A stretch of 64,000 nucleotides of DNA from Sphingobium sp. CR2-8 (GTDB lineage: Bacteria > Pseudomonadota > Alphaproteobacteria > Sphingomonadales > Sphingomonadaceae): the NCBI RefSeq assembly GCF_035818615.1, contig NZ_JAYKZY010000001.1, positions 660,501 to 724,500 of the forward strand. The letters run 5' to 3'. Below, piece by piece: positions 2,293 through 49,595 of this stretch (positions are counted from its first letter, which is position 1; each line of letters opens with the position of its first letter). Under the pieces are notes generated by a model, which saw only the letters and a program-made list of their open reading frames with translations, did not search any database and had not been told where the DNA came from. The position numbers and the translations under genes were made by a program.

Positions 2293-3474
2293 TCAACCGG
2301 AGGTGGATGCAATAACCAGAGGCGCCGCTACCGTCGCAGCCGTGGCTTTCTGAACCGCAGAAATTTGCGAAGCGATTTTCACAGCATCGGGCCTGTAGGG
2401 GATGCGACTCCCAAATCGGTTCTGGAGCTTTCTGACGACCTGTTCTGCGTCGCCAGTGCGTTCCAGCGCAGCGTCCATCTCGGAAAACAGGGCACGAGCA
2501 CCTGCCACGATCACCGCGCGATTATCGCTATCCCACTCATTTATGCATAGATGGCGCAATACCGGATTGGCAACTTTTCCTGTAAGGATGTCCGGCAAGC
2601 GCCGCGCGACTTCAAGGACAAGTTCGTCGTCGCGATCATTGCCCGGCAAGCCATCCAATTGGGCTAGCGCCATGTCGATTGCATGCATCAAGCATAGCGA
2701 TGACAGCGTAGATTTCTCCCATGTAAAATCGCGCCAGCCTTTGAAAAAGCGGGAGAGTCGGCGAAACACAGGACCGTACCGTTCCGAACGTTCCTCAACC
2801 CAGTCATGCATCAACTGCGGGTCAGATTGCACCCAACCTCCATCGCGCTGCGCCAGCATGATCTGATCGGACGGTAGCTTCCACCCGCCTCGAACCGAAT
2901 CCTGGGCAAAGCTCGCCATACCAGCGTCTTCAAGGTTCTTGCTCAGTTGTACGAACCGATCCTGCGGTATCGAATAGATCGGAATATCGACATGTGCCCC
3001 CGGCCACAGCTTGACCCGAGCGCAACAGCTCTTGGTCGGATCGAGCGTCCAGCCCTTTTCGCGGCAGAGCACTCCTAAAACGCTGTCGACGAACTTGAAG
3101 AGGCCTTTGGCTGCTAGCGCGGGTTCCCCATTTTCGAGAAACTGGACCGGCACATACATGCCGTCGTCGAGGTCGATTTCCTGGGCCGGCTTTTGAGCTG
3201 GGTCATTCAGCGTCCGGTAGGCAAAACTGCCTTGCGTCATGAACTTGATGACAACCGATGGACGGTCCCGCCACGACACTCGCGCGCGATAGCTATCCTG
3301 CCAGTAATCGTCGAACCGCGGGATCTGATCGGCCGCAGCCTTGAGCGCCGCACGAATGTCCTTGCGAGCATCGAGCAGCCGCGATTTTTCATCGTTGCTA
3401 ACCTCCAGACTTGCAAGGTAACTCGGATCGGTCCGCAGACCGCAGAAGAGAGCATGTGCATTGGCTAAAGTCAT
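2293..3474 (-). CDS. CD-NTase (CdnA/DncV-like cyclic dinucleotide synthase) of CBASS
   Basis: This 393-residue nucleotidyltransferase carries the GS motif (Gly82-Ser83 in TQGSFAYRTLND) followed by the acidic pair Asp101 and Asp103 in EIDLDDGMYVPV, and a third probable metal ligand at Asp163 (HVDIPIY). This layout matches DncV-type cyclases, which make cyclic dinucleotides when phage infection is sensed. The start at 3474 has an AGGTG site about eight bases upstream; the longer frame to 3534 would run into the divergent promoter of the effector. The gene heads a three-gene operon with cap2 and cap3. The C-terminus ends in Thr-Ser-Gly, and a C-terminal glycine is what Cap2 would conjugate. The product nucleotide cannot be deduced from sequence alone. 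Confidence 0.88.
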   Translation of the reverse strand: MTLANAHALFCGLRTDPSYLASLEVSNDEKSRLLDARKDIRAALKAAADQIPRFDDYWQDSYRARVSWRDRPSVVIKFMTQGSFAYRTLNDPAQKPAQEIDLDDGMYVPVQFLENGEPALAAKGLFKFVDSVLGVLCREKGWTLDPTKSCCARVKLWPGAHVDIPIYSIPQDRFVQLSKNLEDAGMASFAQDSVRGGWKLPSDQIMLAQRDGGWVQSDPQLMHDWVEERSERYGPVFRRLSRFFKGWRDFTWEKSTLSSLCLMHAIDMALAQLDGLPGNDRDDELVLEVARRLPDILTGKVANPVLRHLCINEWDSDNRAVIVAGARALFSEMDAALERTGDAEQVVRKLQNRFGSRIPYRPDAVKIASQISAVQKATAATVAAPLVIASTSG

Positions 3475-3539
3475 TTCACACCTGAACCATTCCCGCTTTG
3501 TTCTCAGGATGGGGTGGTCAGGAATGCAAATCAAGGGTT

Positions 3540-4501: not shown

Positions 4502-6931
4502 TCAACTGAGCTTCGCGTGAACCACATGGCGAGCGGTGCTCCGCGAATAGCTCAATCCCAGGTCCAGCCAGTGCGTCACCTGATAATAGATGCCTTTTTC
4601 ATCGGCTTTATAGGCCAGTAGCAGCTTCCTGATACGTCCTCGTGAAAGGCTGTAGGATATCTTCATCGCAGTCGCCCTGCGAACCAGATGATCGTCCGTC
4701 ACCAGGTTGGAGAGGATATCCTGATCGCTGAGGCGAGCAAATTCCGCCGCTGGAACGAGTTGGATCAGCTTGGCACGCATTTCTTCAGGGAGAGGTCGAC
4801 CAAGCAGATCGCCGAAATCTTCGGCCAGCTTAAGGATGGCATTTGCTGCCGCGGCAAACTCCCCTTCAAGGTCTTCCTGAACGATACCATACCAGGAAAA
4901 GCGAGATGTTCGAGCCAAGCGATCAATGTCGTCTTTAGACCCCAGTGCCTTGAGATAGGCTATCACCGGGATTGTTGGAGAGATATTATACTGATCGAGG
5001 AGATCACGGACCAGCCCCAGGTCGGCCTTGTCCCGTTGCCCGACAACCACCTCAAGCCCCTCGCGAACAAGGTCGCGCGCCTTAGTCGCCGCCATATCAT
5101 CAGGCGTCGCGGAGGCTCCCAGCATTAGCCCGCCTAGAACCGTGCTGCTTTCAGGTTTGAATCCATCCGGCCAATTTTCGGCAACATATTTCACATAACC
5201 ATGTTTGAGATGCTCTCTGAGTGCTGGACCGGTCTGGACCGGGTCCCTCAGAGCCAGCACGCGGCGTGCCTCATGGCGATGCGAGGGATGGTCAAGCAGG
5301 GGTTGTAATGCGGCGACTGTCAGCAAACGCAATTTTTCAGCACGATACCGCCCGAAAAGCGTCTTGCCGACCGGATCGGCACTAGGCTGCGCAAACAACA
5401 AGCCTCTGGGCCTGCTCTGCGCCCTTACCATCACAGTTTCTGCCTCATCGAGCGATAGCGGTTGGCCGATACGTTCTCTTGCCCTGACCGCCTCCAACCG
5501 GACGATGGCCGCTTCGTCATCCAGAGCGCGATCGATCGTCTCATAGGACAGAGCCGACCGCTTGCTGAGGACTGAGACGGATTCAGCGCGGACACGCGGC
5601 GCCCGGTGATCCAGTCCAACCAGAACTTCGTCAGACGCCAAGTCGGCAAAATGAGAGAGACCCTCGACGAGAACGGCATTCTTCATCGATTCGAAAGAAG
5701 CGGAAAGAAGATAGCGCGCCGCTGCAAGTTCATCGGTTCGAAGCAGCATGCCGATCATGGCAACGAGCGCCGCGTCGCTCGTATCTTGCGACGCTCGGTC
5801 AATTTCCCTCTGCACCGATGGCAAATGTGCAGCTGATCCATGGCTCTCAAGATATCGCAAAGCCGCATTTCTGACCGCTTTCGGGGTATCATCGTCAAAC
5901 CAAAACTCAACTATCTTGTTAGGGCTGACGCCGGCAACGGCCTGGACTGGCTCCCCAAGCAAACGCATCACAATCAGCGCGCCAAGGCGCTCGCTTTCCT
6001 CGCCGAGCACGCTTGAAAGTGAGAGCGCTCCGGGGCGCTCTGCCTCAACCAGTGCCAGCCACGACCACAAGGGCGCATTTTCATTATCGATGCTTGCCAA
6101 ACCGCGACTTAACAGCCCGCGTTGCTCGATAAATGAAAATTCTACCTGCTGGTTATAAAGGATGTTGGCGTCATGAACGCCGATCAGTTGCTTGTCATTC
6201 TGGCTCTTTCCGGACGTGCCCGCGACAAGGCGCAACCTTGCAACGTCGGCAAGACTGGGATCGTCTCCGGCTTCATGTAGCCGTACATATTGCTTGAGAA
6301 ATTCGACTTCACTCGCAGACGCCCGCATGTTGCCGGCTGGCTGCGCATTCTCATCAGTCGGCTGGCCACCCGGTTTCTTTTGCTCGGCTGGGAGGGTCGG
6401 CTCGGGCTTGAGCATCTTGATGACATGGCTCGAAAGAAACTCCCTGACCTTAGACGCAAAATGCCCAGCGTCGGTGAAGACATTGTAGAGCAAGGATCGT
6501 TCGGCTCGAAGCTTCTCCTGAAAGGCGAGAACTTTTTTGAGCTCTTCGCCGGGGTCACGCTGGCGTTCCGCCTCGATCTCCTTGAAGAACATCGCCATGA
6601 GCGGACTTTGGGTTGCCTGATGGCGATCAAAAGAGAGAGAAAATTCTTCTTCGAAGCCCGAGCTATAGGGTCCATCCTGCGATGGTCGCGACCCCCAACT
6701 GGTCCACATCACGCCGATAAACAGGTCGCAGGTTTCCATGTCGGCGTTGATGATCGCCTGAGGCCGACCGATCCCCGACAGCGTCTCTTCCCAGCCGATG
6801 AGCTCAAGCCGCCCACCCAAAGGCCGGGCTACCGATCGATTGACTTCTTCAGCGGCAGCAAAGGCCGCCTGCCGTTCAGCCTCAAGTCCACCTGGAGAGG
6901 CAATGAAAGCGCGGATGAGCTTGATATCCAT
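4502..6931 (-). CDS. DUF4062/TIR-like protein with long helical-repeat region
   Basis: This 809-residue protein opens with a Rossmann-like sensor or TIR-related domain: IRAFIASPGGLEAERQA at the start, then ADMETCDLFIGVMWTSWG and a glutamate-rich SSGFEEEF segment, the pattern of DUF4062-type domains found at the front of many bacterial immune proteins. From about residue 240 onward it is mostly amphipathic helices with alternating Leu/Ala, consistent with HEAT/ARM-like repeats. There is no visible NTPase core, so it is not a classical STAND protein. The small membrane ORF upstream overlaps its start, which suggests coupled translation. Its place directly beside CBASS suggests a defence role, but the function is inferred from context only. 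Confidence 0.75.
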   Translation of the reverse strand: MDIKLIRAFIASPGGLEAERQAAFAAAEEVNRSVARPLGGRLELIGWEETLSGIGRPQAIINADMETCDLFIGVMWTSWGSRPSQDGPYSSGFEEEFSLSFDRHQATQSPLMAMFFKEIEAERQRDPGEELKKVLAFQEKLRAERSLLYNVFTDAGHFASKVREFLSSHVIKMLKPEPTLPAEQKKPGGQPTDENAQPAGNMRASASEVEFLKQYVRLHEAGDDPSLADVARLRLVAGTSGKSQNDKQLIGVHDANILYNQQVEFSFIEQRGLLSRGLASIDNENAPLWSWLALVEAERPGALSLSSVLGEESERLGALIVMRLLGEPVQAVAGVSPNKIVEFWFDDDTPKAVRNAALRYLESHGSAAHLPSVQREIDRASQDTSDAALVAMIGMLLRTDELAAARYLLSASFESMKNAVLVEGLSHFADLASDEVLVGLDHRAPRVRAESVSVLSKRSALSYETIDRALDDEAAIVRLEAVRARERIGQPLSLDEAETVMVRAQSRPRGLLFAQPSADPVGKTLFGRYRAEKLRLLTVAALQPLLDHPSHRHEARRVLALRDPVQTGPALREHLKHGYVKYVAENWPDGFKPESSTVLGGLMLGASATPDDMAATKARDLVREGLEVVVGQRDKADLGLVRDLLDQYNISPTIPVIAYLKALGSKDDIDRLARTSRFSWYGIVQEDLEGEFAAAANAILKLAEDFGDLLGRPLPEEMRAKLIQLVPAAEFARLSDQDILSNLVTDDHLVRRATAMKISYSLSRGRIRKLLLAYKADEKGIYYQVTHWLDLGLSYSRSTARHVVHAKLS

Positions 6932-33116: not shown

Positions 33117-33767
33117 ATGTGCAATCTGTACACGGTCCGCAAGTCGGCAGCAGAAGTGGCCGCGCACTTTGGTGTGTCGGCCCCCGTCACGCAGTTCAAT
33201 GTCCCCGAGGATGTCTATCCGGGCTACCCCGGCATGGTGGTCCGCGAACAGGACGGCGAGCGTCACCTTCAATCCATGGTCTGGGGCTGGCCCCTGCGCC
33301 TGAAGGGCATGAAACCTGAATCCAAGCCCAAGCCAGTCAACAATATCGCGGACCTCAAGAAATCCATGTGGGTGGGCTTTGCGCGAAAACCGCAGTGGCG
33401 CTGCATCATTCCGCTGACTGGCTTCGCCGAAGCCGAAGGCGCGAAGGGAAGCAAGACCCGGACCTGGTTCTCGCTCCATGATCGACCGATCTTTGGATGG
33501 GCAGCGCTCTGGCGCGACAGCGCAGAATGGGGACCGGTCTATTCAGGGGTCATGACCGACTGCAATGAGGCGATCCGACCGGTCCATGACCGGATGCCGG
33601 TGCTGCTTCTCGCCGACGAATATGATCGCTGGCTCCATGGCGATTTCGACGAGATCATAGGCTTTCAGGAGCGCTCCTTCCCTGACGCGATGATCGCCAT
33701 CGATCGAACGACGGACCCGTGGGTAAAAGCGCGCTCGCCCCAACCTGAAAATCCGATGTTGCTCTAG
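33117..33767 (+). CDS. SRAP-domain abasic-site protein (YedK/HMCES family), canonical
   Basis: The 216-residue protein begins MCNLYTV, so Cys2 is exposed after Met removal and can link to abasic DNA. Glu105 (PLTGFAEAEG), His157 (IRPVHDRMPV) and the Asn near residue 75 (KPVNNIADL) complete the active site. It crosslinks to abasic sites in single-stranded DNA and shields them from error-prone repair. It is 64 bases downstream of alkB and pairs with a catalytically dead paralogue upstream. Confidence 0.88.
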   Translation: MCNLYTVRKSAAEVAAHFGVSAPVTQFNVPEDVYPGYPGMVVREQDGERHLQSMVWGWPLRLKGMKPESKPKPVNNIADLKKSMWVGFARKPQWRCIIPLTGFAEAEGAKGSKTRTWFSLHDRPIFGWAALWRDSAEWGPVYSGVMTDCNEAIRPVHDRMPVLLLADEYDRWLHGDFDEIIGFQERSFPDAMIAIDRTTDPWVKARSPQPENPMLL

Positions 33768-35384: not shown

Positions 35385-38300
35385 ATGACGCCAGAATTTC
35401 TCAGAGTGGCAGAGCAGGTAATTGAACCGGAAAGCTATACACCGACAACAGCTGCTCAATGGGAAAGCTGGATCAGTGAACAGATCTCGGCTACCGCAGC
35501 GGGCTACCTCGCAAAACCTGATTGGCTGACCGGCCACCACAATGGAGAAGCCTCCATATCCGGCGACTATGCCGGGCGCGAGTTGCTCGAGCTCGTGCAG
35601 AATACCGCAGATGCAGCCGCGGAGATTGGCGGGCATGGTCGCGTACGGATTGAGATTTGCGAAGACGGCCTTTGCGTCGCGAATACAGGCATGCCGTTCA
35701 GGGCTGGCGGTATCCGATCCCTTATGACCGCTCACACGAGTGACAAGCCGACCCGGCGCACTCCTATGATCGGCGCAAAAGGACTTGGCTTTCGTTCTCT
35801 GCTCAACTGGTCAACAGAGCCATTTGTGACGAGCGGAGTTCTCGAAATCGGCTTCTCTCGTTCTCATGCGAGGGAACAGGTTCGCATGCTGGGGCAGAAA
35901 AGCGCCCAGATCGCCAGACTGATCGAGAGCTCGAGAGTACCGCCAGCGCCCGTACTGGCCTTCCCGATGATGAGCGAAGCGATCAAGCAGCAGAACGACC
36001 CGGCAATGCAACGGCTCATTTCGCGTGCCCGAACGCTGCGAGAAACATATGACACTGTGGTCGTCTCCGCCTTCCAGAGCGCGAAGGCCAGGCAGGAAGC
36101 TTTCAATCAACTCACCGAGTTTCGCCCGGATTTTCTGCTATTTGTAGAGGCGTTGGATGAAATCGCGATCGTCGAGGACGGTGAAGAGCGCATATGGCGT
36201 AAAACACCAACGGGCAAGCTCCTCACGCTCGAGATCATCACGCAGGAGAAGACGGAGGTACAGCAGTGGGTTTGCACGCGCGATGCGGGCGATCTTGCGG
36301 TCGAGGCAGAGAAATTGGGCTTCAGGCAGCGTTACGAAATAGCTGTTGCGACCCGCAAGGATGTGGCAACGAAGAGCGGAAACCTCCACTGCTTTTTCCC
36401 GACCTCGCTCGAGGTTCCCTTCCCGGCCCTCTTCCATGCCACACTCGATCTCGATTCAAACCGGAAGTTTCTCAATGCGAACTCGCCAGCGAACCAAATT
36501 GTTCTAGGCGCGCTCTCGACCCTTTATGCCAAGCATATCGAGAAGCTGGCAGTTCTCGATCCTGCTGCCGAACCGCTCACGCTGTTGAGACGCGAGACCA
36601 ACTTCCCAGCGCCGCTTCAGGCGTTCGAATCGGCCATCTACATGGCCGCAAGCCTTGCTCCAATCATTCCCAATAACGGGGCAAAGCGCGTCAAAAGCAG
36701 CGAAACGCAGGTGGGTCCCAAAGATTATGGGCGATATCTTCCCCGGCGGTTCTTTCGTTCGCTTGCCAGATGCAGGGATGAGCATGATCGCGCGACCCTG
36801 AAGCGGCTCAAAGTGGCCGAACTTGATCCCGCAGAGATGGTGCGGGCTCTGGCGGGGGCATCCTTGAGCCTTGATGAAAGAGCAAAGGCGATCGCCGGCA
36901 TCGCACGCGATTTGCCACCAAAGCTGCACGACCGTACCCTGCTGCTCGACACCCAGGAACGGCGACTGACGCGGGATAATAGCTGCTTTCCGCCGCCATC
37001 GACGGGACGTCCGCCTGCATTACCGCGCTGGGCGCGCGCACGGTTCATTCATGCTGAACTCTGGCAGAAAATCTGCAAGGAAATGCCGGGCAATGCCCGA
37101 GAGCGGTTCGATCGCCTTTCTGCATTTGGCATTAACGAATATAATGCCATTGGTGTGATCAGCGCGCTGCGACGGCAGGCGATCGAGACGATCAAGCGCG
37201 GAAAGATGGAGCGATCGAAGGTCCGGCGTGAGTTCCTGGCCGCTCTGCTAAGCCTGAGGCAAACGATCGCCAAGGACACTGCTTATACGCTGGGGCGCCC
37301 TGAAGTTTTTTTGCGCTGATGGCAGATGGCGCGACTGTGGCCAGGTTCACCTCTCCAGCTCCTACGGAGGCCACGGCCCTGTTCTGAGCGCACTGTACGG
37401 GTCGCAGCCCTCATATCTGCTGGGATCTATTGAGGGAAATGGACTTGAAGGCCAGCCCGACGAAATCTCGGCGTTCTTCCGTTGGATTGGAGTTCAGGAA
37501 TGGCCCGTCGGCGTGCGCGAGCCGTTGTCCAGATCGCAGCAAATGCGCGTCAAGAAGGCCCTGCCGACGCATTTCGAAGTCTCAGACGAAAATTACCGGC
37601 GCGACATCCAGCGAGACCAGCTGGCATGGGGCACGAACTGGACTGGCGATCATGAAAGCGTGGCGGGTCTCAGCGGCATTCTGGCAAACGCACCAAGTGC
37701 CGCGATCCTGGCCTGGCTTGCGCTCGATCCGCGTTTCGACATGATCAGACCACATCGGTTTCAGACAAATATGCAGGCCAAGTCCGGCGCTGCGGCCTAT
37801 AGACGCTATCATGGCGCGCTTCCCGATCTTGTACGCGACGCCATCGCTACGCAATCCTGGCTTGAGGTTGCCGGCGGCAACCGCGTTGCCCCCATCGAGG
37901 CCATGCATATTCCTGGGCGGCTTGGTGATCTGTTCCATCAGCCCGAGCGGCCAACCCTCTCGGAGGTCGAATCATATGGCATTTCGCGGCAAGTCTGGCA
38001 CCGGGGTCTGCTTCACGCAGGCGTTCCCGATCGCCTTGCCGATGTACCGGCCAGTCAAATCTATCGGCTGCTCTTAAGCCTCAAGGAAAAGGGGGCGGCG
38101 CCTGACGTAGTGCGGCGGCTTTACGGCCAAATTCTCGAGATCGACGATCTGCAGCCTGGGAATACGCCAGAAGCGAAGATATTTTTTGATGAAGGGAAGG
38201 TGCAGGTACGCCAGCATGGGACGCTGTGCTGGGTTCCGGTCCGGCAAGCGCTCTATCTTGATCGGGATAATTTCCCCGTGGCGGCGCGTGATCATCTTGC

Positions 38301-39651
38301 GATCATCGATTTGCCCGCACGGCGCAGCGCTAAGGACGTGCAGACGCGGTTCGGAACTGCCCCGGTGAGCCGGCAGGCTTTCACGCAAACGGTATCGGAG
38401 GTGATCCAGGCAAGGGACGGTGTACGCACAGTCTTGAGAGATCGTCTTGCTGGCGCACTCCCGTTCATCAAGGCCTATCGGGCCGCGATCAATGCTGAGG
38501 TTCAGAACCTTCGGCGGCTTGACCGATTGGACTTGCAAATCGTCTCGGAAGCCAAACTTGCATTCAGCCTTGGAAGCAGTCTCTTTGAGGGTATGCTGGA
38601 ACCTGGGAGCTATCTGCTCGACGGTGACACGCTCATCATCGCCATCGATGGCGCGGAACAGGAGGATCTGGCCATTGCCCGTGCGACCAGTGCGATCAGC
38701 GACGGCCTTGCAGAGCTGTTCGAACTACAGACTGGTGATGATTTCGAAAAGCTGCTTTCAGCAGTGAACAACGACTTGCGGATGCTGCAGCTTAAACGGC
38801 TACTCAGTCATCACAGCGCTGAAGAAATCGAGATGCTTCTCGCTACCCTTGATGAAGAGCTTGCCAGGTCCGATCCGGGTCCGAGTGTGGATGCCGATAT
38901 CTTCGCACGCGCTACCGCAGCACAAGAGCCGGCTATAGAAGACGCCAAAACGCAATCAGACAGCGCCCAGAGCCCTACCGCTTCTGCACCAGTCGCGCCT
39001 TCTACGGCCGCCTTTACCCATTCCTCTGCGGCTACGCCTCCCCCACCGCCACCTCCCCCACCGGCACCTCCCTCTCCGCCACCCCCACCCGCACTACCGC
39101 CCAAGGCAACCGGCGTGACAGCGACACCGCTCGAGCTAAACTCTGGTTCAGGCACCAGCTCTACGGTGGGATATGTAGGCATAAGGATCGGTGCCCCCCC
39201 ATCTAACACGGGACATTCCGCACGAGACGTCTCGGCGCCGGCGGATGCTGAGACCTGGGCAATTTTCTACGAGGAGAGCCAGGGGCGTTTTCCTGTGCTG
39301 GTCTCGCGTTTACAGGGGGAAGGCGCGTTCGGCTGTGACTGCCTGAGTTTTGCGGCGCATGAAGACCGCACCGCCTTTCAGGCGGCGCCGCATCGGCTGG
39401 ATCTCGTTGCACGCTTCATCGAAGTGAAGTCAGGCCAGGTAAAACTCACACGCAATGAGGAGCGAGCCGCACGACGGCAGAAGAAGCGTTACTTCATCTA
39501 CCGGATCCTGCTCGATACCAATCGGGCATCAGCGCATCTCACGATCATCGAAAATCCCATGCACTACTCGACCGCACTCGTGCAGGAATGCGAGGTGAAC
39601 GTCAGCAAGATCGAAGACCGCAAGGAGCTCAGGCTCAATGCGACGATCTAG
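35385..39651 (+). CDS. Sacsin-like GHKL ATPase with C-terminal DUF3883 domain, split by a frameshift
   Basis: The first frame (to 37319) has an HSP90/sacsin-type ATP site: GRELLELVQNTADAAAEIGG, then MIGAKGLGFRSLLN. Coding clearly continues in another frame through 37320-39651 (for instance GLEGQPDEISAFFRWIGVQE), so the apparent GTG start at 37513 is internal. Removing one T from the run of seven at 37306-37312 gives a single protein of about 1,420 residues. A helical middle and a long proline-rich linker lead to a nuclease-like DUF3883 end, RFIEVKSGQVKLTRNEERAA with the IEVKSG core. ATPase-plus-DUF3883 proteins occur in defence islands. The function is inferred. Confidence 0.8.
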
Positions 39652-39746: not shown

Positions 39747-40649
39747 TCACTCGCCCTTCGTGAGATAGGCTCGGGCCTCGAGATAGACCTCCCATCCACG
39801 GTTCGGATCTGACTTGAGGACATCCAGATAGGCTTTGGCACAGCCCGACTGAGGGGAATTCACACTGGTCAGCTCAATAAGCTGGAGGGCCGCGTCCTGT
39901 TTCTTCACGTCAGACGTCGTAGTTTGCAGAAGTTCATAGGCGCTGAAGACCGACCGGATTGCCCTGAAACGGTCGGAACGCAGTTCCTCGCGCGTATTGA
40001 GTTTGAAGAGCGCGATGGTCACCGCCGCTCGTACATGTTTGGGGCCGGAGCTGTGGACGGGCACCGCAAGAATTCCGTTGAACGTAATCAGGGAAGCAGG
40101 ATCTTCCACCATTGGAAAGATCACCAGCGGCTGTTCTTCATGATCGAGCTGCGCGATGCTATCGACCGCCTTGCCACGCGCGCCCGCAATGGGGAAATAA
40201 CTCGACTTCTGGGTGGAGTTACAGGGCTTGCAGGCAGCCGCGTAGTTGCCGGTATCAAAGGCCAGCCAATAGTAACCCGTGTCGGCGGCGCCACCTGCCA
40301 GATGGGGCACCGTCGCCAAAGGCTTGGGCGCTCTCCAAGCCTTCAGTGCATTTTTCGGGCGAAAATGCTCGACATCATGCTCAATCGACCCCTCCTCTTC
40401 CGCCATCGCACGCTCGCAGAAGATGCATTTGAACTGCTGCAGCCGCATGTAGACGATCTTGACGTCAGACCAGATCGATGGAGGCGCTTTGCCTTTCTTC
40501 CCGCCCTTCACAGTGGGTTTGGGCGGCGTGAAATAGCCAGCCGTCACCACCTTGGCCGTTTCTTCAGCCGCCTTTTGCATCCAGTCAGGCTTTAGTGCAG
40601 CGATCTGAGCAAGGATTTGGGCCTGCGTCGCCTCCGGGTAACGGATCAT
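39747..40649 (-). CDS. ptuB: PtuB-like HNH endonuclease of the Septu system
   Basis: The 300-residue protein has an HNH zinc core with two Cys-x-x-Cys pairs (FKCIFCERAM and AACKPCNSTQK) and between them EHDVEHFRPK and GYYWLAFDTGNY, the pattern of PtuB. Septu combines this nuclease with the ATPase PtuA, which holds it silent until infection. It starts three bases after the ptuA stop, and the two overlap in function as one operon. The N-terminal segment has a basic stretch (KGGKKGKAPP). The convergent sacsin gene ends 95 bases away. Confidence 0.85.
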   Translation of the reverse strand: MIRYPEATQAQILAQIAALKPDWMQKAAEETAKVVTAGYFTPPKPTVKGGKKGKAPPSIWSDVKIVYMRLQQFKCIFCERAMAEEEGSIEHDVEHFRPKNALKAWRAPKPLATVPHLAGGAADTGYYWLAFDTGNYAAACKPCNSTQKSSYFPIAGARGKAVDSIAQLDHEEQPLVIFPMVEDPASLITFNGILAVPVHSSGPKHVRAAVTIALFKLNTREELRSDRFRAIRSVFSAYELLQTTTSDVKKQDAALQLIELTSVNSPQSGCAKAYLDVLKSDPNRGWEVYLEARAYLTKGE

Positions 40650-40652
40650 CGA

Positions 40653-41942
40653 TCAGCCTTCGCCAGTCGCCAGCTTCCGGAGCCATTCAGGCGCATCGAC
40701 ACGTGCTGACTTGAGCTGCCGGCCAACGGTACCACTCTCGCCCCGCGCCGCCATTCGCATGAAGGTCATCGCAGCTCCCGCGTCGCCGCTCACGGCCTGC
40801 TGAGCGACCTTGTCGAGTTCCTGTGTAAAACCAACATCGCGCGTGGAATCCAGGCCGAACAGGTCCGACCTCAGTATCTGGTCTGCCGAGAGGCCGAACA
40901 CCTCTTCCTCGGGCCGGCTGATAACCGGCCGCCCCCTTACATTCTCGACGATCCAGATATTGGCCCGTTCGAGTGTACCGACGATGATAGGGCTGTGGGT
41001 CGTGAAGATGAATTGCAAGCGGGGCAGCGCTTTGGCGATCTTGGGGATGAGTATCCGTTGCCATTCCGGGTGGATATGAAGATCGACCTCATCGACCATC
41101 ACAACGCCTTCCATATCCGAAATGCGGCCATTGGGTGGGCAGGCGGTCGAGAGGTGAGACAAAAGATCGCTCGTCCAGCCGAGATAAGCCCTGTACCCGT
41201 CCGACAGCGCACCAAAAGGGACAATCGCCCCATTTGCCCTGAAGAGATATTCTCCAGACTCCATATCACCGGTAAACTTGATGCCTGGCGGCAAGAGCTT
41301 TCCGATCAGACGCACAATTTCATCAAATCGCTGGGTGTCACCATGCCATTCGGGCAGCCATGTTCGAAGCGGCGCCAAGGGAAACTGGTCCTCGAACAGA
41401 GACGCCACCCGCTGATAACGAGGGTGACGCGACGTGCCTCGGTGCTCGGACGACCCTTGCGCTTCGACCCGACGCATGGCGCCGTAGCCAGCGACAAAGA
41501 AGGCGGGCGATGAATCGAGGAAAAGATTCTCGAGCCATTGATCATCCACAGTACCGGGCTTGACGAACTCGACGTCGCCCCGCCGCTCGATCCTGGCGCT
41601 GAGCTCATAGTCATCCTGCCGTTGCCTCGCGCCGACAAAATCCTGAGCACCAAGGGACACCTTGATTGAAACCTTGGCCTGCTTGGCCGGCTTGGCCCCG
41701 CCGCGCCTGATGAGCGCGTATGGCCTGTAGCCGGTCGAGCCCATGAGCGGAGAGAGGAGTGCAAGGGCGATAGCATCGAGTATGGTGCTCTTGCCCGACC
41801 CATTGATACCTAGCAGAACGTTTACATTGAACAGCCGGGGCGGCTTGCCCCCTCCATCAGGGCCAATGCCTGGCGCGAGAAAACTCGTCTCTGCCGTCCG
41901 AAAGGACCGAAGATTTTCGATTTTCAGCGACTTCACATACAT
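40653..41942 (-). CDS. ptuA: PtuA-like ATPase of the Septu system
   Basis: The 429-residue ATPase begins MYVKSLKIENLRSFRTAETS, has Walker A in VLLGINGSGKSTILDAIALA, an ABC-type signature region (PFGALSDGYRAYLGW), and the Walker B/His loop VVMVDEVDLHIHPEWQRI with TTHSPIIVG. This SMC/RecF-like layout is typical of PtuA and of related OLD-type ATPases; the direct linkage to a PtuB-like HNH gene decides for Septu. The small upstream frame overlaps its start, suggesting coupled translation. Confidence 0.85.
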   Translation of the reverse strand: MYVKSLKIENLRSFRTAETSFLAPGIGPDGGGKPPRLFNVNVLLGINGSGKSTILDAIALALLSPLMGSTGYRPYALIRRGGAKPAKQAKVSIKVSLGAQDFVGARQRQDDYELSARIERRGDVEFVKPGTVDDQWLENLFLDSSPAFFVAGYGAMRRVEAQGSSEHRGTSRHPRYQRVASLFEDQFPLAPLRTWLPEWHGDTQRFDEIVRLIGKLLPPGIKFTGDMESGEYLFRANGAIVPFGALSDGYRAYLGWTSDLLSHLSTACPPNGRISDMEGVVMVDEVDLHIHPEWQRILIPKIAKALPRLQFIFTTHSPIIVGTLERANIWIVENVRGRPVISRPEEEVFGLSADQILRSDLFGLDSTRDVGFTQELDKVAQQAVSGDAGAAMTFMRMAARGESGTVGRQLKSARVDAPEWLRKLATGEG

Positions 41943-42244: not shown

Positions 42245-42841
42245 TCAGCCCTTCAGGAGACCGAATATCTGAAGCGCACCGCCGGCATTTGCAAGGACCT
42301 GCTCGGGCGTCAGCACATATTGCGGTAAATACTGCAATCCAACATCCCGGGCACCCTTCTGGGTTAAGGCAATCATGCCTGGGCGTGATCCAAAGACCGC
42401 CAAAATCCGCCCAGTCAAAGGTGGGCGGCAATGGCCTGCTACGGCCGTGCGGCCAAGCGAGATGTCAATTATCAGGTCGCCAAACAAAATCCAGCAATGG
42501 CCGTCCCAGTGCTCGCCGTCTTCGCCGGAAAATACCCGCCGTCCATCAAAGCTGCGATCGCTGCCGTACATATAGGCGCTGTCGAGTTTCAGCGCGCCGG
42601 CTACGACAGGTACGATCGTCCCCAGTGGCTCTTCGAGCGATGCCGCCAGAAGCGCGCTCATGATCACACAACTGCTTCCAGTGGGCGGCACGCTGTGGAG
42701 CATGCCCTTTGCAATGTCACAGACCAACTCAAACGCCGGATCGTCCGGCACGGCATCGCGAAACCGCTCCATTGCGGCCTGGCCATGCGATGCAGAGATC
42801 AGGGAAAAGAGAGGCTTTGGCCAGACACTCTGGCCGCTCAT
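42245..42841 (-). CDS. Possible transglutaminase-like cysteine hydrolase
   Basis: The 198-residue protein has a Cys in TGSSCVIMSALLAASL, then EHWDGHCWILFGDLIIDISL with His and Asp spaced as in transglutaminase/papain-like folds (Cys, His, Asp triad). That order and the strand pattern suggest a peptidase or amide-modifying enzyme, but the similarity is weak. Its start overlaps the stop of the regulator-like gene in ATGA, and it precedes the Septu genes on the same strand. It may be the partner of the DNA-binding protein, or an accessory of Septu. Confidence 0.6.
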   Translation of the reverse strand: MSGQSVWPKPLFSLISASHGQAAMERFRDAVPDDPAFELVCDIAKGMLHSVPPTGSSCVIMSALLAASLEEPLGTIVPVVAGALKLDSAYMYGSDRSFDGRRVFSGEDGEHWDGHCWILFGDLIIDISLGRTAVAGHCRPPLTGRILAVFGSRPGMIALTQKGARDVGLQYLPQYVLTPEQVLANAGGALQIFGLLKG

Positions 42842-43341
42842 GCCATCACCCGAGCGCCGAGAATACGCCGCGCGTCGATCCGATCGCGTTTAGTCAGCTC
42901 GCCGATGAGAGCCTCGAAACTCACGCGATAGCTTGGTGCGAGGTCAAGCGCCGCAATATGTTCAAGGAGATGCTGCCCGATCGCCCGCGTGTTGATCGAC
43001 ACGGTGAGGATGTCATCGGGTGACCAGGAGGCACTCCAGTTGTCACCTAGCCTGGTCAGGCGAAAGGTCTGTTCCGGATCATGGAGAAATGTGCGGTAGA
43101 AGCCAAAATTGCGAACAATCTTCGCGGCTTCCGCAGCGGGCAAACCGAGGTCCAGCATCGCAGCCAACCCCACCAGATCGAATAAATGGCTCAAGCGATA
43201 TGCGACGGCAGCGCCCGGTATGATAGGCATATCCTGCCAGAGCGAAAGGCGATCTAGCCAGTTGCCCAGTCTGGATGCAGGCACCCCGATCAGGGCGGGA
43301 AGATCGCGACGACTAAATGCGGCATGATTGGGAAAGTCCAT
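42838..43341 (-). CDS. Putative MerR-like DNA-binding protein
   Basis: The 167-residue protein begins MDFPNHAAFSRRDLPALIGV, and the following PASRLGNWLDRLSLW resembles a MerR-type helix-turn-helix. An AYRLSHLFDLVGLAAMLDLG segment fits the second wing of that fold. The rest is mixed and could be the sensor part. The ATG at 43341 has AAGGAG five bases upstream, better than the longer frame from 43359. A small palindrome lies 22 bases upstream. It is the first of a run of four or five leftward genes ending in Septu and may regulate them. Confidence 0.65.
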   Translation of the reverse strand: MDFPNHAAFSRRDLPALIGVPASRLGNWLDRLSLWQDMPIIPGAAVAYRLSHLFDLVGLAAMLDLGLPAAEAAKIVRNFGFYRTFLHDPEQTFRLTRLGDNWSASWSPDDILTVSINTRAIGQHLLEHIAALDLAPSYRVSFEALIGELTKRDRIDARRILGARVMA

Positions 43342-43363
43342 AACATCTCCTTGATACAATCAT

Positions 43364-43596: not shown

Positions 43597-44130
43597 GTGA
43601 CCGTTCTTGATTCGCGCCTCCTGGAACTGATTGAAATATTGGTCGCCGCGCGGCTCGATTGGCTCGCGTTCGAACTCGTCTTTGTTGTCGAAGCGGGGCG
43701 CCATGCTGAGGAATCCGAAGAAGCGCTCGAGATAGCCCGACATGCGATCCGTAGAGGGGGCCCTGTCGAACCGCGTAGCGAGCCAGTTAGCCTGATCGAA
43801 CAACCTGCCCCCATCCCAACCGACGCGCAGCTCGCGTGGGCCGCGAACTATGTAGAGCGCAGGCTTGGCGATGCTCTGGGGCAGCTTGGCGCGTCGATCG
43901 AGGCTCTCGATTCCCTTGTAGACGGAACAATCGAGCAGCAGGATGCCAAGATCGCCATAGGAGGTCCCGGCGTTGGACGCGCAGTAAGCGCCTCTGCGCT
44001 ACTGCTGGATGGGGAGAGCGAGCGCGAATGTGGGCGCGAAGATGTCGAAAATGCAATTAAGAGTCTTCCCAAACTTCGCGCGGCGCTGCGCCAATGGGCT
44101 GGACAGTCGCCGGATGAGGTTCTGCCATGA
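43597..44130 (+). CDS. Hypothetical protein, first gene of the FtsZ-like operon
   Basis: The 177-residue protein (GTG start, GAGAGAGGG upstream) begins MTVLDSRLLELIEILVAARL and is rich in helices and acidic residues. A middle segment (PIPTDAQLAWAANYVERRLG) and the ending KLRAALRQWAGQSPDEVLP give no match I know. Its stop overlaps the start of the nuclease-like gene, so it belongs to the same operon. It may be a small adaptor. The 220 bases before it separate it from the divergent MerR-like gene. Confidence 0.65.
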   Translation: MTVLDSRLLELIEILVAARLDWLAFELVFVVEAGRHAEESEEALEIARHAIRRGGPVEPRSEPVSLIEQPAPIPTDAQLAWAANYVERRLGDALGQLGASIEALDSLVDGTIEQQDAKIAIGGPGVGRAVSASALLLDGESERECGREDVENAIKSLPKLRAALRQWAGQSPDEVLP

Positions 44131-44918
44131 TGCAGACCGATATCCAGTCCGCGCTCGACGCTATCGTCGGGCATGTTACCGCTCTGGACCATGCTTCGGG
44201 CGCCGGACGCATTTTCGAGTTGTTCATCATGACCAGCATCGCGCAGGGCTTGCGTAATGCTCACTTCAGCGTCTGGGTACAACGCTCAGATGGAAGCATC
44301 ATCCATCCCGGCGATCCAGACCGCCGCTTCATTCAGCGCGGCGGCGCGCCGACAGGGGTTGCTCCCGCCTCGGACGGGCCTGAAAATGCGAGCGTCATTG
44401 GATTTCGGCGGGAAAACGGTCCGGCCTGGGAAATCTGGAACGGTATACAGTTCGCGGGGCGGAGCGCTGCCACCCATGAGATCGACATCTCCATCGTTCC
44501 AGCGAGCGTCGGCGCGGCGTTACGGGTCCATGGAGGCATTCCCTTCGGCCGCCCGCGCGTCGCAATCGAGTGCAAGGATGTCCGTACAGCAGGTAGCCTT
44601 GACGAGATGCGCGCATTCATAGCGCGGCTCTATGATGTGACGCTGTTGCGTGCGCATCATCGCCATTTGACTTTTCCCGATGTCAGGGCGCTGCATCCGG
44701 GAAGCCCCAATACCCCCAGACACCGCGCGACTGTGACCTACTGGCAAGAGAACCGGCGCACCAGAAACATCATCGCTCGGCGGACAGGCTTTACCAGCGG
44801 TACCGCTCCTCTGGGAGAATATCATCGGGTGGAAGGCCATCGCGACATCGATGTCGGAAGCTCCACCCTTGACGAGCTTGTCTTCTCGGTCGTGAACTGG
44901 GCTGCTCAAAATGCCTGA
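44127..44918 (+). CDS. PD-(D/E)XK-like nuclease, second gene of the FtsZ-like operon
   Basis: The 263-residue protein shows the restriction-fold arrangement: Glu31 in an early helix (GRIFELFIMT), Asp120 in a strand (THEIDISIVPA) and Glu148-Cys-Lys150 in the next strand (RPRVAIECKDV). These would bind the catalytic metal. The C-terminal part (YWQENRRTRNIIARRTGF) is basic and may touch nucleic acid. Overlapping starts and stops on both sides bind it into the operon. The assignment rests on motif order, so it is probable rather than proven. Confidence 0.65.
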   Translation: MMQTDIQSALDAIVGHVTALDHASGAGRIFELFIMTSIAQGLRNAHFSVWVQRSDGSIIHPGDPDRRFIQRGGAPTGVAPASDGPENASVIGFRRENGPAWEIWNGIQFAGRSAATHEIDISIVPASVGAALRVHGGIPFGRPRVAIECKDVRTAGSLDEMRAFIARLYDVTLLRAHHRHLTFPDVRALHPGSPNTPRHRATVTYWQENRRTRNIIARRTGFTSGTAPLGEYHRVEGHRDIDVGSSTLDELVFSVVNWAAQNA

Positions 44919-45723
44919 GCCTGACGACTTCACCCGGCAGCAAAGCACGGAGGCGATCCGGCTCTACCAGCTCTATCGCGACGCGCTCGACCAAAGCGCG
45001 GTGGACGGGCAGTTCATGCCCTACCAATGGTGGTCGCTTCCCGACCCACTGAGCGTCCCTTGGATGGCTTTCTCCGGCATGCTGAGCGACTATGCAACGG
45101 AGCTTGCGAATATCATCAATAGCCTGACCCATGACGTGCATCGATTGCGGGCGTGGGCGAATGTCAGCGCGTCGCTGACGGACAAGGAAAAGCTTGTCGT
45201 CTCCCACGAGTTTGTCGACACTTTGGGAACGGTCGCTCTCGGCCGGCCCTATGCGATCAAGTCACGCTTTGCGTTCGCAGCCGGCCATCTTGGCCACCAG
45301 GCCAATATGGCGAAGGACATGGCAGGCTGGCGCGACATATTCCCTGCTGACCGCGTGCTCTATCTTAATGATATCGAGGACGTCTGTCGTGGTTGGCGGC
45401 GATTTCGGGCATTCAAACGACGAGTCGAGCCAATCGGCGGCGCGGCCTTCAAGGAGGCCACAGAGGATTTTCGCAATGCCTACAACCACCGCTTCTCTGC
45501 GCGTCTCCTCATCGGGATGAGTGCTATGGTGACGCGTAAAGTGCGCAAGAATGGGCAGGTTTCCTATGGGATCGGTAGAAGCCCGCCGCTCAATCTCGCT
45601 CAGGTCGCCGACCTCCTCGCTGCCGAACGGGATCATTGTTACCGGGCGTTCGAAGCCTTTCAGAGCCTGGTTGACGAGCAGTGTCAGAATATCTCTCGGT
45701 TCGAGCAACAAAGCCCAATTTGA
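44911..45723 (+). CDS. HEPN-like protein, third gene of the FtsZ-like operon
   Basis: The 270-residue protein is all helix by appearance and has an R-x4-H motif at Arg188-His193 (EDFRNAYNHRFSAR), the active site of HEPN ribonucleases and of their toxin relatives. The surrounding pattern resembles the Cthe_2314-type HEPN group. If active it would cut RNA and halt growth. It overlaps the nuclease-like gene by eight bases. The FtsZ-like gene begins 87 bases further on, the largest gap in the operon. Confidence 0.65.
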   Translation: MPEPDDFTRQQSTEAIRLYQLYRDALDQSAVDGQFMPYQWWSLPDPLSVPWMAFSGMLSDYATELANIINSLTHDVHRLRAWANVSASLTDKEKLVVSHEFVDTLGTVALGRPYAIKSRFAFAAGHLGHQANMAKDMAGWRDIFPADRVLYLNDIEDVCRGWRRFRAFKRRVEPIGGAAFKEATEDFRNAYNHRFSARLLIGMSAMVTRKVRKNGQVSYGIGRSPPLNLAQVADLLAAERDHCYRAFEAFQSLVDEQCQNISRFEQQSPI

Positions 45724-45810
45724 GGTTTCATATTATCTCGCAGATGCCAGCAAAGGCATCTCGCGGCGCGATATCAAGAGGATGTCGCTCATCGGGGGGA
45801 AGGGGTCGAC

Positions 45811-48531
45811 ATGCCAGTAGTATTGGCGGCAGGAGCCGGCAAAGCCGGAGCGGTCATGTTGCGTTGGTCCGCAATCAAGCATTTGCGTCAGATTCGATAC
45901 GCCATCATAGACAGTGATGCATCCGAGCTTGAACGTTCCGAGATCGAGCAGAAAATCCATCTAAAGCGAAGTCTCCCTGGACATGCGAACATGGATGTCC
46001 TGCATATGGCTGATTTGAAGGCACTCTCGAAAATCCTGGGGGGCGTTGATATTTGCGTCGTGGTCGCCGGCATTGGCGGTATAGCCGGCAGTGTTGGAGC
46101 AATCACCATGATTGAAGCCGCACGACGGATGGGCATTCCGTGTCTCACCATTGCTTTGATTCCCGCCCATGGCGAGGATGAAACGAAGGTAAGTCGAGCG
46201 CTGAACAGCCTTGATCAGATAGTCGACATGAGCGACGTGACTTTCCTCGCCCCCATCGACCCAGGGATATTGGGCTCTCTTCAGGATGATGAGAATGCCC
46301 TGAAGGCCCAGGACCTTTATGAGTATGTGGATCGCGTTCTTCAGATCGGTTGTGCGCCCCTTCCGACCAATCTCGTCGCCCGCGCAGCTTTGACGCGCGC
46401 AGCCGAACGTGGGCACCTCGGACTGTTTCGTCGATATCTTTTCCGCCCCAGCGAAGAGAGCGCCATGGTAGCGCAGCTCTGGTCCCATCTGACCTCAGAC
46501 CCCAATATACAAGATGTCCAGTTAACCCGAGCAAGCGACGTTACCATAATCGTGCAAAGCTACAGGCAGCCTTCGGCTGCGATCGTCGGTCAAATTACCT
46601 ACTCGCTCTCCAAGGCCTTCCCTCCCGAGATCCAGCTTGATCTCATCACCCGGCGCAACCAGGACTGCGGCGACGCGCTTGGCCTTGAGTTCGTAAGTTT
46701 CTGTCCTGCACCGCTTAACCTGATGGCGCGCGTCTCGCGGACTTTGCAATTGCAGCCCTGGAACCCATTAATGCCCTGGCTTGATCGAACCATTCCGAGC
46801 CCTATCGCCGGCCGCGAGGTTGGTTTGACCGGAGGGCAGATTGTGGTGGCGGGAGCGGCGACCAGGGTTCCGGTGGATCGCCAACGTAAGTCGATGTTCA
46901 TCGGGATACGGAGTCTGTTCCGGCCTTCTACCGGTCCATCGGGATTTGCCCAAGGCAGCTATCTTGCACGGTTAGATGAGCTGCTGACGCACATCGAAGC
47001 GAGCGGAGCGCAACTGAGCAATGTGACAAAAATCCTCTGGGCGGCATTTAGAGCCAATGGCTGGCGCCTTCCGCCACCCAAGACCGCGCCTCTGGCCAGC
47101 ATCTCCGGTGCTTGGCGCAATCGTCGCGGATCGAGACTGTGGAACTGGCGTAGTGTGGCGATCATCGGCCTTCTTGTGGCTATCCCGTTCGCGACCTCGT
47201 CGCTGATACTATGGAATATGCAGTCGATAGTCCGTGCCAGCCTGGCCATGAACGACACACCTATAGATATCGGGGAAGAGCTTGTGGATGCAGACAAGTT
47301 CCGTATCCTCGCAGCAAGCAAATTCACGCCAGCTACCTACGGGCGATATGAAACGATGGGCCTGGCCGCAGCACTGCCATCGGTCCAGACCTCTCATCTT
47401 GATCTCTGGGCTGTCCAGCAGGGCTATCTTCAGTTGGACAGGTTTAATGATGCCAAGCCTCCATTTGCCTTCGTCGAGGTCGGCAACGCCATGACAACCG
47501 GTCAAATACGGTTGGTTGCCGATTATCTTAAAGCGGTCTCTTCGTCACCTGCCCAAGCGATGTTCGCATTGGGTATCTTCCCGGAGCTTGAACGCTTCGC
47601 GAAGCTCGCCGACGTATCCAAGGACCAAGCCGCCTCGGACATGTTCGCCGTCTATGCCGCCGCGGGGGCTGGCGGAGATCTTGACACGATCCTGGGCATT
47701 GCCGGTTGCCGTACGGTGAGGGCCGCGGTTGATCGCCATTTCGCCTGGAAGCGTGAAGCGCCGACCGACATTGCCCTTTCCGATCGTCACTATCTGATGG
47801 CACTTGCCTTCAGGGACACCGCAGCCTGCCGTCGTGATCCATCAAAAATTTTCGACGCCGGCCGCAGCTTCAGCGATTTCACGAAAATTGCTTATGTACG
47901 GCAAGAGAATAAGGGCGCGACACGGAGCAGCGCCGTAACATATGATGTCGTTATTCCTCGAGGTCTAGCGAAGGAACCAATAATCGATGGCGATCTCGGG
48001 GTGTATCTATCCGGCCTGCGGGCATTTTATTTTCTTGATTTTTCTCGGGCGCGCGAGAAATTCGACCGGCTCTCTAGATCTTCTGATCGCGATACCGCAA
48101 CGCTGGGTTCATTCCTGCTCGCGCGTATCATCTTTTGGGCGCATGATTTCGATAGCGGCTCATATCGGCCTGACTTGTTCCCGCCCTGGCGCCATCTCGT
48201 CGAGGATGCCGATTACAGTGTTACGGACCAGGAACTTGGACACCAGGTCAATGAAGCAGCAAAGGATCTGATCGACGAGGGCGAACTGGAAAACTGCTCG
48301 CAGGCCAGCAAAAGCGACACTTGCCGCTGGGCCGTGCGGAAGCAGCGCGCTGATGAGGTATTCAGCCCCTTTCCGCCATCGGACGCCGAACTCATACAGG
48401 CAGCCCTGAAACGCGTGGAACGCAATCCGATCATCGATCCAGAACTTGTGCGTCTATATCTCGGAGCGACTACGATAGAAGGCGATGACGGACCAGAAGA
48501 CACAAACAACTCTCTGGAGGAAGAACTGTGA
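45811..48531 (+). CDS. Membrane-anchored FtsZ/tubulin-like protein, core of the operon
   Basis: In this 906-residue protein the N-terminus is an FtsZ/tubulin-type GTPase fold: VVLAAGAGKAGAVML, AIIDSDASEL, then CVVVAGIGGIAGSVGAITMI around residues 82-101, and ALIPAHGEDETKVSRALNSL. The tubulin signature GGGTGTG is replaced by GGIAGSV (residues 89-95), so nucleotide handling may differ. A single membrane segment follows at about 448-469 (VAIIGLLVAIPFATSSLILW), and then some 430 mostly helical residues that should lie outside the inner membrane. AAGGGG precedes the start. Bacterial FtsZ-like families tied to membrane remodelling are known, but I do not recognise this architecture with a nuclease and a HEPN protein. 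Confidence 0.8.
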   Translation: MPVVLAAGAGKAGAVMLRWSAIKHLRQIRYAIIDSDASELERSEIEQKIHLKRSLPGHANMDVLHMADLKALSKILGGVDICVVVAGIGGIAGSVGAITMIEAARRMGIPCLTIALIPAHGEDETKVSRALNSLDQIVDMSDVTFLAPIDPGILGSLQDDENALKAQDLYEYVDRVLQIGCAPLPTNLVARAALTRAAERGHLGLFRRYLFRPSEESAMVAQLWSHLTSDPNIQDVQLTRASDVTIIVQSYRQPSAAIVGQITYSLSKAFPPEIQLDLITRRNQDCGDALGLEFVSFCPAPLNLMARVSRTLQLQPWNPLMPWLDRTIPSPIAGREVGLTGGQIVVAGAATRVPVDRQRKSMFIGIRSLFRPSTGPSGFAQGSYLARLDELLTHIEASGAQLSNVTKILWAAFRANGWRLPPPKTAPLASISGAWRNRRGSRLWNWRSVAIIGLLVAIPFATSSLILWNMQSIVRASLAMNDTPIDIGEELVDADKFRILAASKFTPATYGRYETMGLAAALPSVQTSHLDLWAVQQGYLQLDRFNDAKPPFAFVEVGNAMTTGQIRLVADYLKAVSSSPAQAMFALGIFPELERFAKLADVSKDQAASDMFAVYAAAGAGGDLDTILGIAGCRTVRAAVDRHFAWKREAPTDIALSDRHYLMALAFRDTAACRRDPSKIFDAGRSFSDFTKIAYVRQENKGATRSSAVTYDVVIPRGLAKEPIIDGDLGVYLSGLRAFYFLDFSRAREKFDRLSRSSDRDTATLGSFLLARIIFWAHDFDSGSYRPDLFPPWRHLVEDADYSVTDQELGHQVNEAAKDLIDEGELENCSQASKSDTCRWAVRKQRADEVFSPFPPSDAELIQAALKRVERNPIIDPELVRLYLGATTIEGDDGPEDTNNSLEEEL

Positions 48532-49595
48532 CAGCGCGAGAATCCGAGCCATCTGGCAAGGGCGCGCGCTGGTTCCTGGCGCTCGTCAGTATTATCGTTG
48601 CGATCGTCACGTTCGATCCGCATTTCGAGAATATTAAACTTCTTTACTACGCTTGGGACACATTTCTTCCCGAGTTGACTATAGCAAGCCTTGTGATCGC
48701 CGGATTTGTCGCTGCAAGGACGGGCGTTCTCCATCTTGTCGCAAGGCATCGCCTTATATTTGCATGCCTCTTCATCCTGCTCGCCTGGAGCAGCTGGGGC
48801 CTCATAAAGCGAAGCGCAACCAAGGCCGATGGTCCTGGCGCAGCAGAAATCTCGACTTTCATGGAACGGCCGATGACTTCACTCTTGGAGTGGCTCGGGA
48901 CGCGGCATGAGGCCTATTCACTGCGACAGGCGAAATATTTCCACAAAGAGATGCGCCTGCGGGCAGTGGATGCCTTCTATGCGCAGGATATTCAGCGAAC
49001 AGCAGCGTATCTTCGCGCGTCTAAGAGCATATTCGAACCAGACGACCAAGAGGGCAAGAATGTCGATGATGCTTTGAGCTTTCTTGTGTCACGCGAACGC
49101 TACATCGCAAATCACAAGGAACGCATCGCAAAGTTCGAACCGCTATTCCCCTTGGCCCCTGCCCGTCTCTACATGATGAGAGCGGTCTCACAGCTCGAAC
49201 GTGACGATCAGCAGGCTCCGGAACTGACAGCGGTAAGAGCAAGAATATATCGCGGAGGCAATGAAGCGAAAGCTGCGGTCAGTGACTGTCTCATGACGCA
49301 AAACAAACCATCAGCGGGCGATGATGGTCGTATGATGATCAACCTCATGCTTGATGCCATGGGGCAATATACGGTTTGGCGTAGCGGAATTGCGGGCGAG
49401 CAATGGTGCAAATCGCTGCAATATCAGTTGCCGAATCATGCAACCAGAAATTCGTTTCTCGATCAGTTTGATACGTTGATGCGTAATCTCTGGGGATCAG
49501 CGCTAGATGACCCATCTAAGGAGATAGAGCCAGGCGGTCCGATACGGAGCCGGTCGAACGAACGAGACGAGAATGCGATTGATCGTAAGCGGTAA
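48528..49595 (+). CDS. Multi-pass membrane protein, last gene of the operon, probably truncated by IS66
   Basis: The 355-residue protein overlaps the FtsZ-like stop by four bases. Three hydrophobic stretches lie in the first 92 residues (WFLALVSIIVAIVTF, ELTIASLVIAGFVAA and LIFACLFILLAWSSW). The remainder is soluble and helical, similar in character to the outer part of the FtsZ-like protein. The last codons, from GTAAGCGGTAA at 49585, are the left end of the IS66 element, so the natural C-terminus is lost and the stop comes from the insertion. It is probably the membrane partner of the FtsZ-like protein. Confidence 0.75.
   Translation: MTARESEPSGKGARWFLALVSIIVAIVTFDPHFENIKLLYYAWDTFLPELTIASLVIAGFVAARTGVLHLVARHRLIFACLFILLAWSSWGLIKRSATKADGPGAAEISTFMERPMTSLLEWLGTRHEAYSLRQAKYFHKEMRLRAVDAFYAQDIQRTAAYLRASKSIFEPDDQEGKNVDDALSFLVSRERYIANHKERIAKFEPLFPLAPARLYMMRAVSQLERDDQQAPELTAVRARIYRGGNEAKAAVSDCLMTQNKPSAGDDGRMMINLMLDAMGQYTVWRSGIAGEQWCKSLQYQLPNHATRNSFLDQFDTLMRNLWGSALDDPSKEIEPGGPIRSRSNERDENAIDRKR

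Follow-up and report, generated by a model that had tools for sequence, protein, structure and literature searches.

The window analysed here, a stretch of 64,000 nucleotides (contig positions 660501-724500) from the ~4.5-Mb genome of Sphingobium sp. CR2-8, carries five consecutive open reading frames on the forward strand, g1 to g5, which an initial annotation had described as a five-gene operon built on an FtsZ-like protein. All five frames were recovered from the ORF list at the positions first given (Table 1), and the overlaps claimed for three of the four junctions were confirmed from the ORF coordinates (g1/g2 4 nt, g2/g3 8 nt, g4/g5 4 nt), the exception being the 87-nt gap between g3 and g4, where a simple consensus scan found neither promoter-like nor terminator-like sites. 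The probability of a chance open frame corresponds to ln P of -33.9 for g4 and -15.9 for g5. GC content is 0.599 in g1-g3, 0.563 in g4 and 0.530 in g5. Comparison of g1-g5 with PADLOC 2.0.0 led to a sole match at E ≤0.1, that of g5 to PglW (E 0.012, 10.8 bits).

Table 1. Features of the window, with coordinates counted from its first nucleotide.
Feature	Coordinates	Strand	Description
CBASS genes	1213-3534	-	DncV-like cyclase (PADLOC 4.3e-174) and E1-E2 protein
809-aa protein	4502-6931	-	DUF4062 similarity; PADLOC candidate PDC-S60 over residues 3-179
TmtA-like protein, two ORFs	35385-39651	+	PADLOC: profile 4-619 in first ORF; 727-1144 plus a weak later match in second ORF
PtuB of Septu	39747..40649	-	PADLOC 1e-93
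PtuA of Septu	40653..41942	-	PADLOC 1.4e-152
Divergent neighbour	42245..42841	-	possible Cys58-His115-Asp126 triad (reading from sequence)
g1	43597..44130	+	177 aa, GTG start; no significant family match (Pfam, NCBIfam, PADLOC)
g2	44127..44918	+	263 aa, PD-(D/E)XK-type nuclease candidate
g3	44911..45723	+	270 aa, helical, R188-x4-H193, HEPN-like
g3-g4 gap	45724..45810		87 nt
g4	45811..48531	+	906-aa orphan; FtsZ GTPase-like head, TM ~447-470, predicted outer C-terminal part
g5	48528..49595	+	355 aa, GTG start; about three TM segments, then soluble part

Upstream of these genes, the Septu system said to adjoin them was indeed matched with both PtuA and PtuB. The gene called sacsin-type is likewise present nearby; its match is to PADLOC TmtA, and it is split over two ORFs. 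Of the more distant CBASS genes, the E1-E2 protein is encoded by a 359-aa ORF that covers positions 1-335 of a 549-position profile. The divergent pair ahead of g1 (42245-43359, minus strand) has as its second gene a frame of 173 aa that reads like a helix-turn-helix regulator and gave no family match. Near the island lies an SRAP gene (33117-33767, Pfam), and a similar one was seen by eye beside a g3 relative (L054:7470-8120), which hints at a shared insertion neighbourhood of the two places. Directly 3' of g4-g5 are transposase-like genes, which we take to be IS66.

PD-(D/E)XK nucleases follow the pattern E...D...(E/D)xK. The Asp120 and Glu148 proposed for g2 were found in place together with Lys150, and the acids and the (E/D)xK are conserved in the g2 alignment, with E31, D120 and K150 in 10/10 rows and E148 in nine of ten, the remaining row (L047) having D. 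A g2 profile gave nothing significant against the PDB sequences. For HEPN proteins the motif is R-x4-6-H, and the Arg188 and His193 pointed out in g3 are present where expected and conserved in 25/25 aligned rows. An AlphaFold model of g3 (pLDDT 86) forms a bundle of long helices, which is compatible with HEPN though not diagnostic. Fold searching with g3 led to no significant match; the structural rows include sacsin HEPN and Csm6, and a lack of HEPN entries among the top rows does not count against a HEPN assignment.

We found g1-g2-g3 in the same order at four further loci, each with all three genes, namely a plasmid of Sphingomonas sp. NBWT7 (L047), S. pokkalii (L062), Novosphingobium profundi (L064), whose g3 is a short ORF of 221 aa, and Aminobacter anthyllidis (L075). 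Identity to the window across these cassettes is 68-79% for g2 and 53-74% for g3. One scan of the species-genome collection with g3 relatives as bait yielded 24 loci, three of which have g1 and g2 directly upstream of g3 in the same order (L062, L064 and L075), the plasmid L047 being the fourth copy; at the remaining 21 of the 24, where the available DNA is short for some (L065, L073, L085), g1 and g2 were not found. With blastp, neither g4 nor g5 was matched in the 24 g3 loci at E 0.01 or in L047 at E 0.05, and DNA homology between the window and the four copies stops between 45497 and 45680, ahead of the g3 stop. The unit of five genes in the operon first proposed is therefore unsupported, as the cassette recurs without detectable g4-g5 and the homology ends in g3. 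Within the cassette, g1 lies immediately 5' of g2 at eight of the ten loci that have g2, counting the window (the g1 profile was made from these same eight loci), and the g1-g2 pair occurs without g3 in L050, L058 and L059. From the occurrence of g1-g2 without g3, and of g3 without g1 or g2, it follows that the cassette joins two modules, g1-g2 and g3, which can also stand apart.

Elsewhere in the genus of the window (93 further genomes), two genomes had a g3-like match, one a g2-like match and none the full cassette. A Mesorhizobium remnant (L048) shares homology with the window over the last part of g2 and into g3, with a transposase gene adjoining. The g3 frame is split over two ORFs in L083 and L089, reduced to a fragment in L081 and not recovered as an ORF in L085. 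A search of phages with g3 gave no match; viral contigs held three g3 relatives, and relatives of g2, g4 and g5 were not found in them. In L054, L077 and L083, g3 is divergent from related proteins of ~1500 aa at a distance of ~100-160 nt, possibly a second g3-containing system; the ~1500-aa proteins of L054 and L077 have no PADLOC match. Two g3 relatives (L054:8204-9574 and L065:1406-2767) carry an extra C-terminal extension of ~190 residues. An ORF 3' of the g1-g2 pair in L059 (10694-11482, minus strand), opposite in orientation to the pair, contains an RNQILH stretch of the R-x4-H type.

The surroundings of the other cassettes were sampled by eye, and 8 of the 10 neighbouring proteins picked match PADLOC families. 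Three cassettes, those of L047, L064 and L075, have AbiE nearby, L075 has PD-Lambda-4 as well, and a type I specificity subunit was found in L062; a helicase in L064 gave weaker PADLOC matches, and the proteins L062:7293-9614 and L047:2554-3804 gave none. A 63% identical counterpart of the divergent neighbour at 42245..42841 adjoins the cassette of N. profundi (L064), linking this gene to g1-g3 in two of five cassettes. Known defence genes are thus present around the window and around the other four cassettes, in agreement with the defence-island setting first suggested, and make the cassette a defence candidate through guilt by association.

The N-terminus of g4 is FtsZ-like, as the initial annotation had claimed. 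Its match to the Tubulin/FtsZ GTPase family PF00091 (E 6.7e-7, 30.2 bits) lies slightly below the 33-bit cut-off and rises above it in a six-frame search (33.4 bits), the match to NCBIfam ftsZ (E 3.3e-8) is well below that family's cut-off, and a phmmer search of the PDB led to FtsZ with E 2.7e-7. A profile of 29 FtsZ-type sequences built without g4 gave 44.0 bits over residues 2-182, and none of 200 shuffles of g4 residues 1-340 exceeded 1.5 bits, indicating genuine homology to the GTPase domain. Past residue 182, FtsZ similarity is not significant. Of 137 FtsZ columns conserved at ≥90%, g4 retains 32. GGIAGSV is aligned to GGGTGTG of the T4 loop, and since GGGTG is absent anywhere in g4, the signature GGGTG(S/T)G is lost; the residues opposite N34 and N149 differ as well, and D174, the aspartate of H7, is retained. 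The catalytic T7 loop has the acidic pattern N-x-D-x-x-D. Residues 175-229, where T7 aligns in a part of the alignment beyond the significant region 2-182, contain no Asp; the string NQDCGD at 283-288 fits the pattern, either as a displaced T7 or by chance. Given the changed T4 loop and the lack of acids where T7 aligns, it is doubtful that g4 is a GTP-hydrolysing polymer, and from these motifs GTP hydrolysis is expected to be weak or nil. The proposal of a polymer-forming protein is weakened by the same two changes, though less so if the string at 283-288 is a T7 loop.

The membrane segment predicted for g4 was found as one strong hydrophobic segment at ~447-470, in addition to stretches within the FtsZ-like part. 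Arginines ahead of this segment suggest a cytoplasmic head, with residues 470-906 on the outer side. An AlphaFold model of g4 from the single sequence has a mean pLDDT of 36, too low to speak for or against the tubulin fold predicted for residues 1-350. The host genome contains a separate FtsZ-type match (G000:C2, 2.3e-50).

Relatives of g4 were sought at several levels. A protein search that scored the best 8000 candidates by shared words, and which a relative of ~40% identity could escape, revealed nothing beyond ordinary FtsZ similarity, and the matches listed for a class search of 385 genomes were taken up by ordinary FtsZ-type proteins. When ORFs of at least 100 aa from the window and from L047-L104 were searched with an FtsZ profile including g4, only g4 was recovered, in the window and as a copy in L086. 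The g4 C-terminus and g5 matched, at E 0.001, only their own genome in sets of 94 genus, 397 family and 398 phylum genomes, each including that genome and the latter two with at most two candidates scored per genome, if one match in G548 is set aside. We regard this match (E 8.3e-4, a 104-aa frame containing a stop) as due to chance, as we do a Pseudomonas plasmid match to g4 (E 2), a marginal match of g4 to L049 (E 0.008, 55 residues, in an 85-aa ORF) and short g5 matches at E ≤0.1 in 15 of 327 class genomes, three regions of which were inspected. Neither the g4 C-terminus nor g5 was found a second time in the own genome.

No plasmid match was obtained for g5. About 5.8 billion proteins compared by shared words led to a single relative (P0003), a 371-aa protein from a JGI metagenome that is 50% identical over 94% of the length, which argues that g5 is a real gene. 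The membrane nature ascribed to g5 holds, as its hydrophobic segments are present and lie inside the first 95 residues. C254 and C294, in the predicted outer part, are common to g5 and this relative and might form a disulfide.

From the absence of detectable g4-g5 at the other cassettes, the end of homology within g3 and, weakly, the GC difference, we consider it probable that two adjacent modules lie in this defence island, a mobile g1-g2-g3 cassette and an orphan g4-g5 membrane pair. Against two modules, all genes share a strand, g3 and g4 are just 87 nt apart and the scan of this gap found no terminator-like site, as in one operon; the difference in GC is also modest when set against other genes of the island (PtuB 0.576; the gene at 42838-43359 0.571). 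As the other cassettes number only four and L064 has a short g3 (221 aa), the addition of g4-g5 may represent an uncommon variant of a single system. In such a system of five genes, the membrane-bound FtsZ-like g4 together with g5 would respond to phage entry or to damage of the envelope by activating the nuclease g2 and the RNase g3. The shared strand, the close or overlapping genes, the gap in which no terminator-like site was found and the setting in a defence island are consistent with it; nevertheless we judge it unlikely, as detectable g4-g5 are missing from 4/4 other g1-g2-g3 cassettes, DNA homology ends in g3, and the GC of g1-g3 differs slightly from that of g4 and g5. A single machine, with an FtsZ polymer coupled to DNA and RNA cutting, had been the initial suggestion, and here the co-occurrence check went against it at all four other cassettes, g4 itself having yielded no relatives to compare. 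Co-transcription of all five genes from a promoter ahead of g1 is plausible, and a joint function is possible, with comparative support lacking.

The two-module reading has a variant in which g4-g5 are an independent envelope pair with no defence role that came to lie next to the cassette, the head positioning the complex or affecting division. Its odds overlap those of the explanation preferred here, and on its own we rate it as somewhat improbable: the orphan state of the pair, its lower GC and the transposase-like genes directly downstream agree with it, whereas the lack of a second g4 C-terminus or g5 copy in the own genome does not. That g4 is a decaying gene without function could explain the altered T4 motif and the relatives not found, but seems very improbable for 906 codons that have stayed open (ln P -33.9) next to an overlapping partner, g5, that has a metagenome relative of 50% identity.

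For the two modules as we propose them, the g1-g2-g3 cassette (43597-45723) is most likely anti-phage or anti-plasmid, in view of the conserved order, the close or overlapping genes, the nuclease- and HEPN-type motifs and the defence neighbours observed. The small g1 protein might bind the g2 nuclease and restrain or target it, g2 would attack invading DNA, and g3 as an RNase-like subunit would shut down the cell when this attack fails or g1-g2 is disturbed. In the second module (45811-49595), g4 would be an inner-membrane protein with a cytoplasmic, divergent FtsZ-superfamily head and a helical outer part, and g5 its partner with three TM segments and an outer part of its own. Together they may make up a complex of the envelope, with the FtsZ-like head serving for binding or as a scaffold rather than as a GTP-hydrolysing polymerase.

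With g1-g2-g3, a candidate defence system without significant match in the family libraries searched becomes available that is small enough for cloning and testing. The second module adds a membrane-anchored protein of the FtsZ superfamily that has kept the outline of the nucleotide domain and lost the signature loop; if functional, it would represent a reuse of the tubulin superfamily as a membrane module outside cell division. Should the five-gene device be true after all, the tubulin superfamily would be used in immunity, for which no precedent, that is no FtsZ-superfamily defence protein, was found in the titles and abstract starts of the literature searched, a coverage outside which most subscription journals and preprints lie.

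Compared with FtsZ, the GTPase of cell division, g4 is alike in the N-terminal GTPase-like domain (residues 2-182) and differs in the T4 loop, in the T7 acids at the aligned place, in its length of 906 aa, in the TM segment and in the outer part. FtsZ-like proteins with an extra C-terminal region have been described beside a normal FtsZ as FtsZl1 and FtsZl2 in a survey (Makarova and Koonin, 2010; PMC2875224), which proposes a membrane role for FtsZl1, accompanied by vWA, kinase, GTPase or OmpA genes, and states that FtsZl2 retains T1, T4, T6 and T7 and is without conserved neighbours. In these terms g4 resembles both in its extra C-terminal region and in occurring in a genome with a normal FtsZ. 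We do not assign it to FtsZl1, as the neighbours differ, with no vWA, kinase, GTPase or OmpA match among the nine proteins that were scanned between 39747 and 49595, nor to FtsZl2, judged against its published description, as T4 is altered in g4 and the FtsZl2 motifs are kept. The g2 protein is unlike the PD-(D/E)XK nucleases of defence islands in having no significant Pfam, NCBIfam or PADLOC match and in being accompanied by the small partner g1 in 8/10 loci, and appears like them in its E...D...(E/D)xK pattern. Likewise, g3 shares with the HEPN RNases an R-x4-H motif, conserved in all 25 rows, and its modelled helical bundle is compatible with theirs.
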